From Acidobacteriota bacterium (GTDB lineage: Bacteria > Actinomycetota > Acidimicrobiia > Spongiisociales > ZC4RG35), in contig JACZUI010000014.1 of NCBI GenBank assembly GCA_022573225.1, positions 1 through 49,225 on the forward strand: DNA of 49,225 nucleotides, given 5' to 3'. The notes under the pieces were generated by a model, which had not been told where the DNA came from, made no database searches, and saw only the letters and a program-made list of their open reading frames with translations. Position numbers and translations under genes: made by a program. This document shows, in pieces, positions 25,252-33,764 of the stretch. Positions within the stretch are counted from its first letter, which is position 1. Each line of letters begins with the position of its first letter.

Positions 25252-25312
25252 CCACACATCTTCCTGCTAAGTTCGGGAACTACAGCTCTGTAACTCAGGC
25301 CCATTGGAAAAA

Positions 25313-28300
25313 GTGTCTTTCGCCCATCTTCATCTACATACCGAATACTCGATGCTCGACGGGGCGGCACGGATCGAGGATGTGGTCGCGGCCGCCGCAG
25401 CAGACGAACAACCGGCCATAGCGATAACGGATCATGGCGTCATGTACGGAGTGGTCGACTTTGTCAAGGCTGCCCGCTCGCTGGGCATCAAGCCGATCAT
25501 CGGGATCGAGGCCTACTTCACTGACGGCTCCCGTTTCGACCGGCCCACCGGCTCCGCCAACAAGCGCTATCACATGAACCTGCTGGCGGAGAACGAAATC
25601 GGCTACCGCAATCTCCTCCAGTTGAGCTCCAAGGCGTTCCTCGAGGGGTACTACTACAAGCCGCGGATGGATTTCGATCTCCTCGCCCAGCACTCCGAGG
25701 GCATCATCGCAACCTCCGGCTGTCTGGGCGGCCTCGTGCCCCAACTCCTGGCTCCTGACTCGGTCAGTGAGGAAGGCAACAAGGGCCAGATCCGGGACTT
25801 CGACGCCGCTATTGCCGCTGCCGGGAGGTTCCAGGACATTTTTGGCAAGGACAACTTCTTCATTGAGGTGCAGGATCATGGGCTGGCAGCACAGAAGGCA
25901 ATCATGGGCGACCTCCTCGACATTTCTGCCAAGACCGGAGCGCCTCTGCTCGCGACCAACGACGCTCACTACACCAAGCGGTCAGAACACGACGCTCATG
26001 ATGTTCTTCTCTGTATCCAGACCGGATCGCTGCGAAGTGACCAGGACCGACTCCGATTCGAGGGCTCCGAGCATTACCTCAAGACGGCCAACGAGATGCG
26101 GGCCCTTTTTCCCGGGGCTCAATACCCTGGGGCGTGCGACAACACGTTGTGGATCGCCGAGCGCGTCAACGTCGATATCGAGTTCGGAAAGATCCTTCTT
26201 CCGCACTTCGAGGTCCCAGAAGGGGAGACCGAGGTCAGCTATCTGCGGTCCCTGGTCGCCAGCGGAGCCGACGAGCGATACGGGCCCAGCCCCAAGCCCG
26301 AGGTATGGGAACGGATCGAGCACGAACTCAAGATCATCGAAGAGATGGGTTTTCCCGCCTATTTCTTGATCGTTTGGGATCTGATTCGCCATGCAAAAGA
26401 GAACGGGATCAGGGTGGGTCCGGGGAGAGGGTCTGCGGCGGGCTCGATCGTCTCCTACTGCCTGAAGATCACCGAGCTCGACCCGCTCGAATATGGGTTG
26501 ATCTTCGAGCGGTTTCTCAACCCGGGTCGGCGTCAGATGCCGGACATCGACATGGACTTCGACGAGCGGTATCGGAGCGAAATGATCCGGTACGCAGCCG
26601 AGAAGTATGGAGCCGACCGGGTGGCTCAGATCGTCACCTTCTCCACGATCAAAGGCAAACAGGCGCTGAGAGACTCCGCCCGGGTCCTTGGTCATCCGTA
26701 CGGCGTCGGCGATCGCTTGGCCAAGGCGATGCCACCGGCGATTCTGGGCAAGGAGGCGCGGCTGGCCCAGGTGCTGAGCCCGCCGCCCTCCGATGCCGAC
26801 TCGACCACAAAAGACTGGTATTCCAACGGCCAAGGCCTCAGGGACCTGTACCAGGCCGATCCTGCTGTCAAGGAGACCGTCGACGCCGCTCTGGGCCTCG
26901 AGGGATTGCGACGCCAGGATTCGATCCACGCTGCCGCGGTTGTCATCGCCCCCGAGCCGATAACGAACATCGTCCCCGTCCAGCAAAAAGGCGAGGGCGC
27001 CGAGATCGTTACCCAGTACGAGATGCACGGGGTGGAGGCGCTCGGGCTCCTCAAGATGGATTTTCTCGGCCTGCGCAACCTATCGATCATCGAGAGATGT
27101 CTCGAGTTGGTGGAGAAGAGCCACGGTACCCGAGTCGACATCGACCGGGTCCCGCTCGATGATGCGAAGACATTCGAGCTTCTCCAATCGGGCGACACGG
27201 TGGGTGTGTTCCAATTGGAGGGCAACGCCATGCGTTCCCTGATCAGGTCGCTCCGGCCCGACTCATTCAACGATGTGATCGCCCTCGTCGCGCTTTATCG
27301 GCCAGGACCCATGGGGGCCAACATGCACACCCTCTACGCCGATCGCAAGAACGGTCGTGTTCCCGTCGAGGAGTTGCATCCGGCCCTGACCGAACTTCTC
27401 GCCGACACCTATCAGATCATGGTCTACCAGGAACAGGTCATGCAGGTCGCGCAGGAGATCGCCGGCTATTCGATGGCCGACGCCGACCAACTCCGCCTGG
27501 CGATGGGGAAGAAGATCAAGTCTGTCATGGCTGCCGAGCGGCAGACCTTTGTTCAGGGTTGCATCGCCCAGGGGTACACCGAGGAGGTGGGTCGTGACAT
27601 CTTCAAGCTGATCGGACACTTCGCCGGCTACGGGTTCAACCGCAGCCACAGCGCTGGGTATGGCCTGGTGGCGTACCAAACCGCCTACCTGAAGGCTCAC
27701 TACCCACCGGAGTATCTGGCTTCGCTCCTCACCGCCACCAAGAAGGACAAGGACCGAACCGCCATCTATCTCAACGAGTGTCGACAGATGGGCATCGAGG
27801 TGCTCGTCCCCGACGTCAACGAGTCGGAGTCAGACTTCGCCGTTCGCAATGGTCGGATCCTGTTCGGGCTGTCGGCGGTGCGAAATGTGGGGGAGGGAGT
27901 CGTCGAGAAGATCCTCGAAGCCAGAGAGGAGGGGCCTTTCGCCTTGTTCCAGGACTTCGTCGACCGTGTGGACATGTCCGCGCTCAACAAGAGAACCATC
28001 GAGTCTCTCGTCAAGGCCGGGGGGTTCGACAGTATGGGCGCACCGCGAAAAGGCCTCATGTTGGTCTTTGAGCAGGTACTCGATGCCACGGTCGAGCGGC
28101 GCAGAAATGAGGAGATAGGTCAGTTCAGCCTCTTTGCCGGGGATGCGGATGCGGTTGCCGAATCGCAAGTCGACGTCCCCGCCCTGGAGTGGCCGAAGAA
28201 GATCCAACTCGCCTTCGAGAAGGAGATGCTGGGTCTGTACGTGTCGGATCATCCCCTTTTGGGAGCAGGTCCCTCACTGGCGGCGGCCACGAGCTACTCG

Positions 28301-28810
28301 ATCAGCGAATTGGGGGAGCTCACCGATCGCACATCGCTCACCATTGGTGGTCTGGTTGGGGCGATAACTCGCAGATGGACCCGCAACGGCGAGCCGATGC
28401 TCTTCTTCCAGCTGGAGGGTCTGGAAGGGTCGGTAGAGGTCATGGCCTTCCCCAAGACGGTTCGCGACTTTGGCCATGTGGTGGTCGAGGATGCGATCGT
28501 AGTCATATCGGGCCATCTCGATCAGCGGGGAGACGAGGTCAAGGTGATGGCGCGAGAGATCACCGAGTTCAAGTTGAGAGATGACTCTGTGGTCAGACTG
28601 AAAGTGGCCGCAGCCCGGCTCACGCCTGAGTTCGTGACACATCTGAAGGCGATTCTCGGCAATCATCCCGGGTCGGCATCGGTCTACCTGCATATGACCA
28701 GTGAGAAGGGAACCAAGGTGCTTCGGCTCGCAGACGGTCACCGGGTGGAGCCGAGGTCCGCGTTGCTCGCCGAGTTGAAGGAATTGCTCGGTCCTAGCGC
28801 CATTCTCTGA
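25313..28810 (+). CDS. dnaE: DNA polymerase III alpha subunit
   Basis: Replicative polymerase, about 1165 aa, DnaE1 type. The PHP domain opens the protein (AHLHLHTEYSMLDG), followed by the polymerase core with catalytic D411 and D413 in PDIDMDFDERYR, GPGRGSAAGS, the helix-hairpin-helix region (FNRSHSAGYG upstream of it) and a C-terminal OB fold (IGGLVGAITRRWTRNGEPM). No intein is present. I prefer GTG at 25313 because the product then begins (M)SFAHLHLHTEY; a TTG at 25304 would add three residues. The stop abuts the stop of the convergent HAD gene with no gap. Confidence 0.96.
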   Translation: MSFAHLHLHTEYSMLDGAARIEDVVAAAAADEQPAIAITDHGVMYGVVDFVKAARSLGIKPIIGIEAYFTDGSRFDRPTGSANKRYHMNLLAENEIGYRNLLQLSSKAFLEGYYYKPRMDFDLLAQHSEGIIATSGCLGGLVPQLLAPDSVSEEGNKGQIRDFDAAIAAAGRFQDIFGKDNFFIEVQDHGLAAQKAIMGDLLDISAKTGAPLLATNDAHYTKRSEHDAHDVLLCIQTGSLRSDQDRLRFEGSEHYLKTANEMRALFPGAQYPGACDNTLWIAERVNVDIEFGKILLPHFEVPEGETEVSYLRSLVASGADERYGPSPKPEVWERIEHELKIIEEMGFPAYFLIVWDLIRHAKENGIRVGPGRGSAAGSIVSYCLKITELDPLEYGLIFERFLNPGRRQMPDIDMDFDERYRSEMIRYAAEKYGADRVAQIVTFSTIKGKQALRDSARVLGHPYGVGDRLAKAMPPAILGKEARLAQVLSPPPSDADSTTKDWYSNGQGLRDLYQADPAVKETVDAALGLEGLRRQDSIHAAAVVIAPEPITNIVPVQQKGEGAEIVTQYEMHGVEALGLLKMDFLGLRNLSIIERCLELVEKSHGTRVDIDRVPLDDAKTFELLQSGDTVGVFQLEGNAMRSLIRSLRPDSFNDVIALVALYRPGPMGANMHTLYADRKNGRVPVEELHPALTELLADTYQIMVYQEQVMQVAQEIAGYSMADADQLRLAMGKKIKSVMAAERQTFVQGCIAQGYTEEVGRDIFKLIGHFAGYGFNRSHSAGYGLVAYQTAYLKAHYPPEYLASLLTATKKDKDRTAIYLNECRQMGIEVLVPDVNESESDFAVRNGRILFGLSAVRNVGEGVVEKILEAREEGPFALFQDFVDRVDMSALNKRTIESLVKAGGFDSMGAPRKGLMLVFEQVLDATVERRRNEEIGQFSLFAGDADAVAESQVDVPALEWPKKIQLAFEKEMLGLYVSDHPLLGAGPSLAAATSYSISELGELTDRTSLTIGGLVGAITRRWTRNGEPMLFFQLEGLEGSVEVMAFPKTVRDFGHVVVEDAIVVISGHLDQRGDEVKVMAREITEFKLRDDSVVRLKVAAARLTPEFVTHLKAILGNHPGSASVYLHMTSEKGTKVLRLADGHRVEPRSALLAELKELLGPSAIL

Positions 28811-29611
28811 TCAGCGGCGCCAGAGCCGAAACTTGCTTTCCGCGAGCGCCGCTGCCCGACCATGATTTCGTCCGAGAACATATGCGATCGCGGCAGAGCC
28901 GCCGGCCACGGTCGCGACGGCACTAGCGGCGAAAGCCCGCTTCGTCTTTCGAGCGAAAATCACCACCGGCCAAGCTCTCTCGTGGGCCACGGCGTCGAGG
29001 TGTGAGTCCGGGTTCACCGCAACGGGGTGACCAACCACCTCCAACATGGGCAGGTCGCTGATCGAGTCGGAGTAGGCGTAACACCGTTCGAGGTCGTATC
29101 CGCGCTCGGCCGCCAGCTTCTCGATCGCGATCGACTTGCCTGCACCGTAGACAAATGGGCCGTCCAGCTCGCCTGTGTAGCGACCGTCGACAACCTTGCC
29201 CTTGGTCCCGATGGCTCCGGTCATTCCAAGTGCGGTTGCCAGCGGCTCGACGATCAGCTGGGGTGATGCCGACACGATCCACGTGTCGCGCCCTTTCTCA
29301 TGGTGCATCTTGAGGAGCTTTCGTGATTCGGGGCGAACTCGCGAAACGAGCTTGGGCAATGCCGCCCGTCCGACCTCGTCCAAAGAGCCGGCCGGGCTAC
29401 CTGCGATTCGGGTGAGGAACGCGCCACGAATCTCATCGGACGCCTCTCCCTTGTCGCCGAGCACCTTGAAACTGAGGGCGGCGAGTCCCCATTTGAGGAT
29501 GTCGGTGTTCGAGGCGAGTCCCTCTCTCCAGGCTTCGACGCCGACGGGGAACGCCGACGCACCTGACATGAGTGTCCGGTCGAGGTCGAAGAAGGCGGCT
29601 GCTTGAGGCAT
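28811..29611 (-). CDS. HAD-IB phosphatase with C-terminal membrane helix
   Basis: 266-aa haloacid-dehalogenase phosphatase of the SerB-like IB class. Motif I is FFDLDRT (nucleophile D9, acid D11), motif II WIVSASPQ, then a conserved lysine and YSDSISDLPML as motif IV. A hydrophobic stretch near residues 228-248 followed by a basic end (KFRLWRR) suggests a membrane tail. Related actinobacterial proteins are involved in phospholipid or morphology pathways, but the substrate cannot be told. The ATG at 29611 has both GGAGG and a TAAGCT box just upstream. Confidence 0.85.
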   Translation of the reverse strand: MPQAAAFFDLDRTLMSGASAFPVGVEAWREGLASNTDILKWGLAALSFKVLGDKGEASDEIRGAFLTRIAGSPAGSLDEVGRAALPKLVSRVRPESRKLLKMHHEKGRDTWIVSASPQLIVEPLATALGMTGAIGTKGKVVDGRYTGELDGPFVYGAGKSIAIEKLAAERGYDLERCYAYSDSISDLPMLEVVGHPVAVNPDSHLDAVAHERAWPVVIFARKTKRAFAASAVATVAGGSAAIAYVLGRNHGRAAALAESKFRLWRR

Positions 29612-29620
29612 GCCTCCAGC

Positions 29621-30661
29621 TTATCCGGCTGAAAATCCCAACTCCGCCCATGGTATGTCTGAGGACGACTTCATCAGATCCGCCAAACCATCGAGATCCG
29701 TAGGTGGATGGGCCGACCAAGGGACCGCGGCGATGTGGGCTCCGTACCGAGACGAAAACTCCTGCCGACTGTCACGCTGGCGGAGGGTTTCGGCAGCCCA
29801 TTGCTCCAGGTTGTGAGCGAGGGCTGCGGGTGTCCCGGGAGGAGCCGTGGCTTCGGCCCACTCGGAAGGCAAGACGCGGTTGAAGACCACTGCTGCGGGG
29901 ACTGATGCCAGCCCGGGGAGCGCTCGGTAGAAGCGAATCGCCTCTCTAACCGGGGCCGGATCGGAGGTCGTGACGACAATCACCGCGGAGGATCCGAGAA
30001 CGGCCTCGATCTCGCGTCCCCGTTGAGCCACGCCGTCGTAGGTGGTCCGAAGGTCGAGAAGGAACTCCGCGACGCGCTCCAGCAGGTCCGAGCCCAGGAT
30101 CGAGTCTGCGATACGCAGGACGGGACGGCCGGCGACGTTGAACAGGAAACGCCGCCCGGGCAAAGGCCCGCCGGTGATCCATCGGAGGAGACGGCCTCCC
30201 ACCAGATCGGCCATCTGGGCCGGCGCCGTGAAGAAATCTATGCCGCCACCCGATGGCGGTGTATCGACAACGACGAGATCCCACGCCTTGGCCTGGACAA
30301 ACGTTGCGGCCTGATCGGCGGCGGCATACGACTGGGACGCGGGGAAGTGCTCCGAGGCGGCTCGAAAGAACTCGTTGTCAACGAGCCGGGCCGCCACGTC
30401 GGGCTCGGCGTGCCGCTCGGCGACAGCCCGCCACGAGGCGGTGGCGTCCAGCATCGCGGCCCACAGGTTTCTTTCAGAGGGGTGAGGTTGAGGCTCATTG
30501 CCGAGGTTCTCGACGCCGAGAGCGGTGGCAAGTCGTCGCGCCGGATCCACCGTGACAACGAGGGTGCGCATTCCGGCGCGCGCCGCGGTGACTCCCACTC
30601 CGGCCGCGATCGTTGTCTTGCCGACCCCGCCTGCCCCGGTCACGAGGAGTGTCTTCGTCAC
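29621..30661 (-). CDS. Get3/ArsA-like ATPase, second of a pair
   Basis: 346-aa soluble ATPase of the ArsA/GET3 class. The deviant Walker A GAGGVGKTT is at residues 9-17, the DTPPSGGG switch and VVFNRVLP follow, and there is an insert rich in hydrophobic residues in the middle, where Get3 forms its client-binding groove. GTG at 30661 overlaps the stop of the first ATPase by 4 nt, so the two are coupled. The pair resembles mycobacterial Rv3679-Rv3680, where the two proteins form a complex; these are not true arsenite pumps. An upstream extension of the frame is shadow. Confidence 0.85.
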   Translation of the reverse strand: MTKTLLVTGAGGVGKTTIAAGVGVTAARAGMRTLVVTVDPARRLATALGVENLGNEPQPHPSERNLWAAMLDATASWRAVAERHAEPDVAARLVDNEFFRAASEHFPASQSYAAADQAATFVQAKAWDLVVVDTPPSGGGIDFFTAPAQMADLVGGRLLRWITGGPLPGRRFLFNVAGRPVLRIADSILGSDLLERVAEFLLDLRTTYDGVAQRGREIEAVLGSSAVIVVTTSDPAPVREAIRFYRALPGLASVPAAVVFNRVLPSEWAEATAPPGTPAALAHNLEQWAAETLRQRDSRQEFSSRYGAHIAAVPWSAHPPTDLDGLADLMKSSSDIPWAELGFSAG

Positions 30662-31503
30662 AGGATTTCCTCCAGTTCGTCGCTGAGATGGGCGGCAACC
30701 TCGCCAGGTGTGAAAAGTCCGAACAGGTATGGGAGCTCGAGATCTGGCGGGAGTGTGTGCAGCCATTCCTGTTGCTCACGCCACAGATCCCGATGCAAAC
30801 TGGCTGCATCCCTGACGGGACCCGTCGGAGCGTCGGCTTCTTCGAGTTCGGAGAGGATCCGATTGGCGATGATCGTCGGCTTCGAGACCAGATTCTCGTT
30901 GTTGATCCAATTCAGAGTCTCGCTCGTCTCGGTCGTGGGCAGCTCCTCCGGCAGAGTCACCAACACCAGTCGGGTCTGGGATGGGTCCCTCAGCGTTTCC
31001 TTCATCATCTCCGCCTGAGCGAGGATCCGCCCTGTCGGCACCAACTCTCCGATGGTCACCGGGGCCCTCAGAAACGATCCGATCTGGCCAGTGGGTGGAG
31101 CATCGGCCACCACAATGTCCCATCGATCCTCTTTGACCTCCCATATGGCCTTTCCGATTGTGATGATCTCCCGGATCCCGGGGGCAGTCGTGGCGAGGGC
31201 ATCGAAAGCACGTGCCACCGGGCCGAATCGCGCGATGCCGCGGACGCCCAACTGGAGAGACAGGTACTCCAGCAAGGCGTCGGATCGCACCATTCGCATC
31301 GCATGGAGCCCCGGTCTGACCTCGCGCGGTTCGAATTCCAGAGGGCCCGAGGTGAGGTGGGTCGACAAGCCCTGGCCGTCTCCCATTTCCATCGCCAGGA
31401 CACGCAGACCGCGGCGCTGTGCCAGGAGCGCCAATCCTGCCGACAGGGCCGACTTGCCGACGCCACCCTTTCCCGAGACGATGACGAGTCGTTTGTCGAT
31501 CAC
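30658..31503 (-). CDS. Get3/ArsA-like ATPase, first of a pair
   Basis: 281-aa partner of the following ATPase. It carries GKGGVGKS at residues 11-18 and DAPPTGQIGSFLRAP, corresponding to the switch region of Get3 (DTAPTGHTL in eukaryotes). Its middle part is shorter than that of its partner. GTG start at 31503, 27 nt after the small upstream gene, so three genes probably form one operon. The likely role is handling hydrophobic or membrane-tail clients or redox stress, by analogy with the mycobacterial pair; the client is unknown. Confidence 0.85.
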   Translation of the reverse strand: MIDKRLVIVSGKGGVGKSALSAGLALLAQRRGLRVLAMEMGDGQGLSTHLTSGPLEFEPREVRPGLHAMRMVRSDALLEYLSLQLGVRGIARFGPVARAFDALATTAPGIREIITIGKAIWEVKEDRWDIVVADAPPTGQIGSFLRAPVTIGELVPTGRILAQAEMMKETLRDPSQTRLVLVTLPEELPTTETSETLNWINNENLVSKPTIIANRILSELEEADAPTGPVRDAASLHRDLWREQQEWLHTLPPDLELPYLFGLFTPGEVAAHLSDELEEIL

Positions 31504-31530
31504 TCGCGACGGGCCACTACTGCCAGGGGA

Positions 31531-31749
31531 TCAGTCGGGCTGGCCCAGAGGAATCCGAAGGACCAGGTGATCGTCCTCAACGGTCCAGTCTGCGGTGCCA
31601 ACCAGGGCGAAGTCGGTGTAGTCGGTCTCGGCCTGTTCCATGAAGAGGCGACGTTCTTCTCCGGCGACAGGCGGTAGTGGTCGGTCTTTCACCGCGGAAG
31701 CGCGCTCCTGATACCTTTTCAGCATTGCGTCTACATCAAATTGAGCCAT
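31531..31749 (-). CDS. Small uncharacterised protein upstream of the Get3-like pair
   Basis: 72-aa acidic, soluble protein (MAQFDVDAMLKRYQERA at the N-terminus, likely helical; then a predicted strand-rich end FALVGTADWTVEDDHLVLRIP). I do not recognise a family. Its position as first gene of the operon, with a start not predicted by any Shine-Dalgarno but preceded by a TACCGT box 6 nt before the ATG, suggests a leaderless operon start. It may be a partner or regulator of the ATPases. Confidence 0.65.
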   Translation of the reverse strand: MAQFDVDAMLKRYQERASAVKDRPLPPVAGEERRLFMEQAETDYTDFALVGTADWTVEDDHLVLRIPLGQPD

Positions 31750-31813: not shown

Positions 31814-33433
31814 TCAGGGTGACGCGGAGCGACGTCTTTCCTCGGCCTTGCGTTCCCCCTCGAGTCGTTCCAGATCCACGTCGGTGTAATCGACGTATGT
31901 CATCGCGTCCGCAATCAACCGATGACCGGCCACATCACGAATCGCCCGATGCATCTGGTGTGCCACCGCTCTGTAGGCAGGGTGGCCGGCGGACTGGCTC
32001 CTGAGTTCGATGAGGTGAAATGCCTGCCGGGGATTCATCTCCATGACAAATCGAACGTTGAACGCGAACGGAACGACGTACTGCGCCACCTCCCGCCCGA
32101 GATCAGCGCGAATGCGCTCGTAGAGATCCCCGGATTGATCCATCAAGGACGCCCATTCGGCGGAGAGCCTTTCAGTCACTAGTTCGGCTGGGACGTCATA
32201 GCCCAACCTGGTGGAGAACTGCTGCCATTCCAGAGTCATCAGGCGGTGACGTTGCAGGTCACGGAACGCACCGATGTCACACTTGACGTCGAACCGATAC
32301 ATGGTTCGTTCCATTGCTCGCCCCGGCTTGTGTCGCCTGTTCCGGCGACGCCCCACCATTGCAGCCAACACCTGGGCTCGTTCGGCAGTGGACATCGAAC
32401 GGGCGATCTCCTGAAGGCGGGAATCAGGAAGCTCCGAGGCGGCGTAAAGGCCGGCGGCGACGATCTTGGTCTCGGTGTCCGGATCCCAGTCGGTGAGGGT
32501 CACGCTTGGGCCCGGGTCATCCGGCTCACCTAGATCGGAACCAAGCGTCTCCAGGTCTGTGCGCACATCGGCGAGATAGTTCGATGTCATCACACCCCGG
32601 TCCTCCAGATCCACCCTGGTGAGGAAGGATGGGATGATCTTGCGCAGTTCTCCCAGCATCATCTGGCCGTAGTCTCGAACCTCGGCCACCGGGCTTGCCT
32701 GCATTCGCACCAGAGCCATCTCATAGGCCTGTCCCGTGCCGTAGATTCCGACGTTGGACAACGTCGAGACGGGAAGCAGACCCCTCACGGTGTCGCAAGC
32801 CTTGGCCCGGATGGTGGCGTTGTAGATCATCTTCGAGTCGGACTCACTGCGCGGGTGACGCCCCTCGAATACCCGGGTCATCGTGGCCACCATTGTCGAG
32901 TAGGAATCGAATATCCGCTCCATGTGCTCCACGTAGCGTTTCGAGTGCTTCGACGCTGCAATCTCGTCAGGAACCAGGTACCGATACCGGCTTCCAAGTC
33001 GGGCGTCGTATTTGATGTATCGCGTGGATTGCTCGAGATAGGCGGCCAGCCGGCCCCATTCGAGGACCTTGGTGAGAAGGTTGGACGCCTGTTCGCAGGC
33101 AAGATGGGCGCCGCCGAGCTGAGCAACCGAGTCGTCGCCATAGTCGAAGAACACCCGCTCGTAGAGCCGTTCGGCGCGCTGCGTCGAGACGAGTGGATCG
33201 TCCCCTATCTCGGAGGAGATGTTGGCAATACCCGTCTCAGGATCGGAGATGAACTCGTCGAGAAACAATCGCCTCAGGGACTTGGGGGATCTCGAGTATC
33301 GGGCGAAGAGGGCACCCTTGACCACCTCGGGAAGGTTGACGAGGCCAAACACAGGCCGGTCGACGTTGGTGAAGAACCTCGACAGGACAGCCTGCTCGTC
33401 GTGTGTGAAGCTCTCCTGGTGATAGGTTGGCAC
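31814..33433 (-). CDS. Tandem-domain ThyX-like flavin-dependent thymidylate synthase
   Basis: 539-aa protein made of two consecutive ThyX-like domains, about twice the normal ThyX length. The N-terminal half has FFDYGDDSVAQLGGAH and WGRLAAYLEQSTRY, an R-x7-S form of the ThyX signature lacking RHR. The C-terminal half has QRHRLMTLEWQQFSTR, which keeps RHR but with altered spacing to Ser. Thus neither domain alone shows the full RHR-x7-S motif. I start at the GTG at 33433: a TACAAT box lies 8 nt upstream, and the open frame beyond it overlaps the divergent gene. FAD-dependent thymidylate synthesis is likely but not certain. Confidence 0.75.
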   Translation of the reverse strand: MPTYHQESFTHDEQAVLSRFFTNVDRPVFGLVNLPEVVKGALFARYSRSPKSLRRLFLDEFISDPETGIANISSEIGDDPLVSTQRAERLYERVFFDYGDDSVAQLGGAHLACEQASNLLTKVLEWGRLAAYLEQSTRYIKYDARLGSRYRYLVPDEIAASKHSKRYVEHMERIFDSYSTMVATMTRVFEGRHPRSESDSKMIYNATIRAKACDTVRGLLPVSTLSNVGIYGTGQAYEMALVRMQASPVAEVRDYGQMMLGELRKIIPSFLTRVDLEDRGVMTSNYLADVRTDLETLGSDLGEPDDPGPSVTLTDWDPDTETKIVAAGLYAASELPDSRLQEIARSMSTAERAQVLAAMVGRRRNRRHKPGRAMERTMYRFDVKCDIGAFRDLQRHRLMTLEWQQFSTRLGYDVPAELVTERLSAEWASLMDQSGDLYERIRADLGREVAQYVVPFAFNVRFVMEMNPRQAFHLIELRSQSAGHPAYRAVAHQMHRAIRDVAGHRLIADAMTYVDYTDVDLERLEGERKAEERRRSASP

Positions 33434-33441
33434 GGCCGGCG

Positions 33442-33478
33442 ATTGTACGCCTGGTTTGGTCCCTGGACGGTTACCGTC
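33442..33478. promoter_or_regulatory. Back-to-back leaderless promoters with palindrome
   Basis: On the minus strand TACAAT (33442-33447) lies 8 nt before the thyX-like GTG. On the plus strand TACCGT (33472-33477) lies 8 nt before the GTG at 33486. The plus -10 sits inside a 13-bp palindrome GACGGTTACCGTC (33466-33478), a possible operator that would cover both promoters. Confidence 0.45.
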
Positions 33479-33485
33479 ACCAACC

Positions 33486-33764
33486 GTGGCAGTGCTCTTT
33501 GTCCGGCTCGGGATCTTGCTGCTGGCGGGTGTCGCGATTGTGATCGCTGCCTTGCCAATCCTGGTTCTGATCGACCTTCTCGACGGAGGCACCGGATTGG
33601 GCCTGTGTCCCACCGGTCTCGAGGCCTGCGACAACCCGTACACCACAGTGGTCGAGTTTGCGGTAGTTCTGACCCTCGGGTTTCTCGCCTCGGTGTTGGG
33701 CATCCGCTTGCTGGCGAAGCTCGTTCGGAAGCTCCAATCAGACGAGTATCAGGTCTCTCAATGA
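33486..33764 (+). CDS. Small two-helix membrane protein
   Basis: 92-aa protein with hydrophobic helices at about residues 4-33 and 58-82, a central Gly/Cys-containing loop (GLCPTGLEACDN) and a basic, then polar C-terminus. The loop cysteines could form a disulfide if it faces outward. No family recognised. It is divergent from the thyX-like gene, shares its promoter region, and its 3' end overlaps the EamA remnant by 7 nt. The GTG at 33486 is chosen for its leaderless promoter; a GTG at 33456 would add 10 residues. Confidence 0.6.
   Translation: MAVLFVRLGILLLAGVAIVIAALPILVLIDLLDGGTGLGLCPTGLEACDNPYTTVVEFAVVLTLGFLASVLGIRLLAKLVRKLQSDEYQVSQ

Follow-up and report, generated by a model that had tools for sequence, protein, structure and literature searches.

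The locus described here is an ordinary, divergent BagAB-like pair of ATPases beside a conserved but probably independent small gene. It lies in a window of 49,225 nucleotides (the whole stretch of DNA that was analysed). We consider it probable that two independent things are joined at this place, a divergent single-site relative of BagAB and the small gene, and that the small protein is no dedicated subunit of the pair. The surprising part is that the small gene also occurs in phages.

Genes on the minus strand follow the order thyX, small gene, bagA-like, bagB-like and HAD-IB hydrolase (all positions are window coordinates). The small gene (31531..31749, minus strand; ATG at 31749, stop ending at 31531) encodes a 72 aa protein of an unnamed family specific to Acidimicrobiia. 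Its stop is separated by 27 nt from the start of the bagA-like gene (30658..31503, minus strand; GTG at 31503), which encodes a 281 aa ATPase with the P-loop GKGGVGKS, including the signature lysine. This gene overlaps by 4 nt the bagB-like gene (29621..30661, minus strand; GTG at 30661), which encodes a 346 aa ATPase with the P-loop GAGGVGKT and the switch motif DPARRL. A longer ATG form of the bagB-like gene, from 30766, is also an open reading frame; the GTG at 30661 agrees with homologues. After 9 nt follows the gene for a HAD-IB hydrolase of 266 aa (28811..29611, minus strand; ATG at 29611; TIGR01490, 175 bits). Upstream, thyX (flavin-dependent thymidylate synthase; 31814..33703, minus strand) was assigned from profile matches, and its true start is probably nearer 33343. 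Facing these genes is dnaE (DNA polymerase III alpha; 25304..28810, plus strand), which was identified by eye; a phage relative of its product matches the Pfam DNA polymerase III alpha models. Reading frames, spacing and strand thus confirm the tight cluster of small gene, bagA-like and bagB-like genes, with the HAD gene 9 nt downstream, that an earlier note on this DNA had described. That note also had the small gene starting the operon. It is the first gene of the trio, but not evidently the start of an operon: thyX precedes it on this strand at a distance of 64 nt, and a promoter search of the region (sigma-70 consensus only; 0.9 sites expected by chance) gave no candidate. PADLOC found no system.

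Both ATPases match PF02374 (4.6e-21 and 4e-23), and one more full-length PF02374 protein is encoded in the window's genome, on another contig (C4; 290 bits). The two proteins had been read as different Get3/ArsA-like ATPases coupled as in mycobacteria, and this holds: the best PDB match of the BagA-like protein is chain A of 6bs3 (Rv3679, 1e-23) and that of the BagB-like protein is chain B (Rv3680, 4e-41). The top NCBIfam families are likewise BagA (122 bits) and BagB (189 bits). Because these scores fall far short of the NCBIfam equivalog cut-offs (400 bits for BagA and 521 bits for BagB), the proteins are named BagA-like and BagB-like; judged by sequence, they are distant relatives of M. tuberculosis BagA/BagB. 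The M. tuberculosis system (Rv3679/Rv3680; PDB 6bs3, 6bs4 and 6bs5) also consists of two Get3-like ATPases with A ahead of B. It differs in that its BagA is longer (340 aa in the 6bs3 chain versus 281 aa) and in its surroundings, the window pair being flanked by a member of an unrelated small family and not by a divergent DUF4177-like gene. In other classes of Actinomycetota, a different small ORF that is DUF4177-like was seen divergent from bagA at 10 of 12 loci (L248-L257); the one such ORF tested against Pfam passes, at 25.5 bits.

In Get3-type ATPases the signature lysine of the P-loop reaches the partner's nucleotide, and the switch aspartate sits in a DPA motif. These elements are divided between the window's proteins. 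The BagA-like protein keeps the signature lysine and lacks the DPAxRL motif; the BagB-like protein has no signature lysine in its P-loop and keeps the DPA switch motif. When tested for a split ATP site, the pair thus has the lysine in A only and DPAxRL in B only. M. tuberculosis has the same split, with GKGG in A, and GAGG and DPAKRL in B. Among the loci of the window's order, GKGG occurs in BagA at 30/31, the lysine of the BagB P-loop is replaced by A, G or S (GAGG, GGGG, GSGG) at 31/31, and DPA[KRQ]RL is found in BagB at 31/31. The split recurs at 22 further loci from the class and phylum (BagA 21/22, BagB 22/22; two of these loci, L102 and L105, belong to a single genome). Split motifs as the defining trait of a BagA/BagB pair are our own proposal. 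Across the phylum, the half-sites of BagA and BagB were seen to be complementary, suggesting a single ATP site per pair.

The complementary half-sites lead us to infer that each heterodimer has one composite ATP site. The products of bagA and bagB would form an asymmetric heterodimer with one working site. P-loop and switch aspartate would come from BagB, and the signature lysine, absent from BagB, would be provided in trans by BagA. A client-binding surface would then open and close as ATP is bound and hydrolysed. We regard heterodimer, trans-acting lysine and client cycle as the most likely mechanism, by analogy with the relatives in 6bs3 and with Get3 and MinD biochemistry.

The predicted fold of the BagA part matches 6bs3 chain A and the eukaryotic and archaeal Get3/TRC40 structures (PDB 2woj and 3zq6), with which it has the fold in common (Foldseek E of 2e-15 to 5e-15; TM of 0.57-0.60 of the query). 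The eukaryotic Get3/TRC40 homodimer has a CxxC zinc-binding motif. In contrast, cysteine is absent from both window ATPases, so there is no CxxC zinc site, and the window system would be built from two unlike subunits with split motifs. Phenotypes given for bagAB in mycobacteria, in the available text of PMC10597346 and PMC12216072, are glycerol and nitric oxide tolerance, citrate tolerance and streptomycin survival; no client of BagAB is named in that text. The original studies of BagAB, as cited in PMC10597346, appeared in J Bacteriol in 2019 and 2020. Literature searches for bacterial Get3 in Actinobacteria found none, and our statement extends to those searches only.

The small protein was predicted to fold with high confidence (pLDDT 91.0, pTM 0.74) into a helix at residues 6-22, a helix at 30-51 and a beta hairpin of strands 54-58 and 61-65. 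It is acidic (pI 4.4-5.7 in the cellular copies listed), and R12, R16, A17, V20, R23, P26, P27, G30, R33, F36, D43, D46, L62 and L68 are invariant in 40 sequences. Divergence within genera is mostly synonymous (pS 0.19-0.67 versus pN 0.01-0.10 in 13 pairs), and purifying selection acts on the gene also where bagAB is absent. Searches of the protein against Pfam and NCBIfam gave no match. When Pfam was run on the 40 members, six families were matched weakly (best E 0.06), DUF4177 (PF13783) not among them. Against the PDB, Foldseek returned nothing at E 0.001 or better and a profile search gave a best E of 0.31, while the best rows from VIA-align (Z of 5.6 and below) were unrelated, mostly helical chains. 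Two candidate affiliations were rejected. phrog_33001 was matched by 7/40 members over the C-terminal half only (best E 0.0009), which is too weak, and it was not matched by the phage copies. DUF4177 as the ancestor of the small gene was discarded after an hhalign comparison with the DUF4177-like neighbours of bagA (probability 0.1). The conserved signature proteins of Acidimicrobiia in the available text of PMC5962788 are likewise restricted to the class and without assigned function. None of the five class-wide proteins given there (226, 130, 99, 194 and 185 aa) has the length of the small protein; a 71 aa entry is given there for Acidimicrobiaceae alone.

The small gene is present in 119/148 genomes of the class; when only genomes with 90% or more completeness and no more than 5% contamination are counted, the figure is 92/109. 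As it was not found in the other 29 of the 148, it is not universal. In a set of 296 genomes from the phylum, 23/27 class members carry the protein at E 1.5e-31 or better. Outside the class the same set gave only chance-level matches, in 3/269 genomes at E 0.0016-0.0099, and these three were discarded. A scan of public genomes gave 167 stretches that encode a relative; among the 80 of these that were listed, the source is Actinomycetota wherever the record title gives a phylum or lower rank. Ilumatobacter and Desertimonas flava, which are culturable Acidimicrobiia, are among the sources. Within the window's family and order, the protein is conserved in 56/60 genomes (window included). Two further observations concern its surroundings elsewhere: in G276 (L056/L120), one of the class genomes from outside the order, it shares a single reading frame with a protein that is, by eye, shikimate kinase-like, and in some other members of the class the gene lies near aroB and aroC.

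Values for association with bagAB were derived from the same 60 genomes of the order, of which 45 carry bagA (44/59 and the window). The small gene adjoins bagA in all 45. In 27 the two are co-directional with the small gene first (median of 18 nt between match ends), and in 18 they are divergent (median of 90.5 nt between matches, range 52-138 nt). There are 11 genomes with the small gene and without bagA, none with bagA and without the small gene (0/45), and four with neither (G001, G031, G056 and G057, all drafts, 59-90% complete). Mapping of 61 loci gave three states of the interval between dnaE and thyX (arrowheads give gene direction): dnaE> small> thyX<, without bagAB; dnaE> bagB< bagA< small> thyX<; and dnaE> (HAD<) bagB< bagA< small< thyX<, as in the window. 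The basic arrangement is dnaE-small-thyX. In most of the order the space from dnaE to the small gene is taken by bagAB, and thyX flanks the small gene. In a DnaE tree, the state without bagAB requires 5 changes and the window's orientation 6, with at least 4 of each forced by well-supported branches. Note that its 33 rows are those of the 61 mapped loci with family and state listed and a DnaE of at least 250 aa, and that family f6 is missing. Depending on the root, either a single entry of bagAB followed by several losses or more than one entry would account for this. At L128-L166, the small gene was seen to have been flipped in place several times within the order, the orientation of its neighbours being unchanged.

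Outside the order the association disappears. Among 18 regions from the rest of the class (5-10 kb each; f77 not counted), none has bagA or bagB near the small gene, and most of the extra-order class genomes examined carry bagAB elsewhere in the genome. Family f77 contributes 28 listed small genomes with the small gene and without convincing bagA or bagB (5e-7 or worse for bagA, 3e-5 or worse for bagB). In the two f77 regions that were read, the small gene directly follows dnaE and lies beside a gene that is, by eye, thyX-like. The small gene is therefore not restricted to genomes with the bagAB pair. Conservation of the small gene beside Get3 pairs, which the earlier note proposed to check, applies within the order (45/45) but not beyond it (0/18 regions). 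Membership of the small gene in the Get3 system is not supported, given the 11/60 order genomes that carry it without bagA, the 28 listed f77 genomes, the phages and the extra-order regions.

Three scans of IMG/VR, with which a fourth agreed, returned 29 distinct phage contigs with the small gene, 8 of them longer than 50 kb. No match to bagA, bagB or thyX was found in 355 kb of these contigs. The copies occur in three gene settings (L265-L298), compared over 29 viral loci, the remaining loci being the same contigs again. In the main setting, of 25 contigs, a conserved gene of 121-138 aa lies directly downstream of the small gene in 24 (the 25th contig stops at the small gene). The gene after that is PAPS reductase-like, and L280, the one contig inspected closely, continues with neck and tail-sheath proteins. 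The second setting comprises 3 contigs, the two longer of which have a terminase, a DNA methyltransferase, RecA and their own DnaE upstream. The third is represented by L298 alone. Overall, neighbours of the phage copies include tail sheath, neck, RuvC, PAPS reductase, RNR, terminase, DnaE and RecA.

Nine copies of the main phage clade differ mostly at synonymous sites, with pS values of 0.23-0.92 and pN values of 0.01-0.16 (36 pairs). The gene is accessory in phages, being carried by 20/51 contigs with the downstream neighbour gene, some of which end before the small-gene position. As with other host (auxiliary) genes carried by phages, a host-type gene is kept under selection. The nearest cellular relative found of a phage copy, 74% identical, is from a member of the class (G202), and the host is presumed from that match. 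Phage copies matched no PHROG family at E 0.01. In tblastn searches of 50,697 phage records, neither the window protein nor the L268 copy had a match, and the L266 copy had two, both weak and partial (E of 2 and 8). In the small-protein tree (17 distinct proteins of the 29) the phage state requires 3 changes, 1 of them forced; the tree is too short for captures to be counted firmly, and we infer three capture events from the three different gene settings only.

On the reading that we prefer, two independent things at one locus, the small gene would encode an acidic protein of about 70 aa, with a helix-helix-beta hairpin fold, that stands alone. The gene is present in most of the class with no constant partner, lying between dnaE and thyX in the order and in f77; in the window's family, where it points as bagA does, it may be co-transcribed. 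Most likely, the protein would serve as adaptor or regulator in some central process that phages need as well, since separate copies are carried by one phage clade and by two further types of phage. That the process is replication or nucleotide supply is a guess of low probability, made from the dnaE/thyX setting. Slightly less credence goes to a fuller version, in which the protein is a lineage-specific accessory factor for replication or nucleotide supply in Acidimicrobiia, beside dnaE and thyX in two lineages, captured by phages of the class and kept by them under strong selection. Its adjacency to bagAB would then be a later positional accident, and the BagAB pair of Actinomycetota would be a single-site heterodimer with complementary half-sites.

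Less likely again, we believe, is that the small protein became an accessory subunit or adaptor of BagAB in this order, recruited from an older general role. Its gene adjoins bagA in every order genome with bagA (45/45), is tightly spaced and co-directional in 27 and stays adjacent through changes of orientation. Since bagA never occurs without the small gene and adjacency is kept despite the flips, a real linkage within the order may exist. Against this, the gene occurs without bagA in 11/60 order genomes and without bagAB across the class and in phages. The common position between dnaE and thyX accounts for the adjacency without a common function, although it is compatible with one. When small protein and BagA were folded as a single read-through chain, the fold was confident (pLDDT 92.9), but the linker (residues 70-78) was disordered, below pLDDT 50, and neither confident packing nor a confident relative placement resulted. 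The pTM of 0.78 is by our estimate about what two unlinked domains would give. This is a weak test, with one chain, few paired rows and no interface score. A very improbable reading, in our judgement, is that the protein acts on expression, its place beside bagA being part of a common control region like that of the DUF4177-like gene elsewhere. The divergent arrangement at 18/45 order loci, with 52-138 nt between matches, would suit it, as would the divergent DUF4177-like ORF at 10/12 loci of other classes. Profile comparison nevertheless shows no relationship between the two small families (probability 0.1), fold searches with the small protein recognised nothing that binds DNA, and the phage copies occur without bagAB.

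The HAD phosphatase had been put forward as a tail-anchored client of the pair, which we think improbable, if less so than a role of the small protein in expression. It does lie 9 nt downstream of bagB with a real hydrophobic tail. The window protein has a hydrophobic stretch near its C-terminus followed by 20 residues, and in all nine complete neighbouring HADs such a stretch is followed by 9-24 residues. The neighbourhood, however, is limited: a HAD gene is next after bagB in only 10/61 mapped loci (gaps of -4 to 60 nt), none of them outside the family of the window, and the stretch of these neighbouring HADs is mildly hydrophobic (mean Kyte-Doolittle of 1.2-1.8 over 19 residues). Relatives of the HAD whose C-terminal tails are hydrophobic (1.75-2.2) were found in 7/8 of the genomes without bagAB that gave matches, and the window's genome has a second tailed HAD at another place (G000:C14, L341). 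As genomes lacking bagAB have tailed HADs too, bagAB is not a requirement for a HAD of this kind. HAD-IB paralogues with a clear C-terminal hydrophobic tail were also observed to be widespread in the order, with or without bagAB.

Taken as two probably independent things, the locus warns against a tempting guess: being conserved next to a Get3 pair does not by itself make a gene the partner of that pair. For bacterial BagAB, it offers a testable model with a single ATP site. It also brings to light an unnamed protein of about 70 aa from a large and predominantly uncultured class. Most members of the class encode it, those with the smallest genomes among them, and so do the presumed phages of the class.
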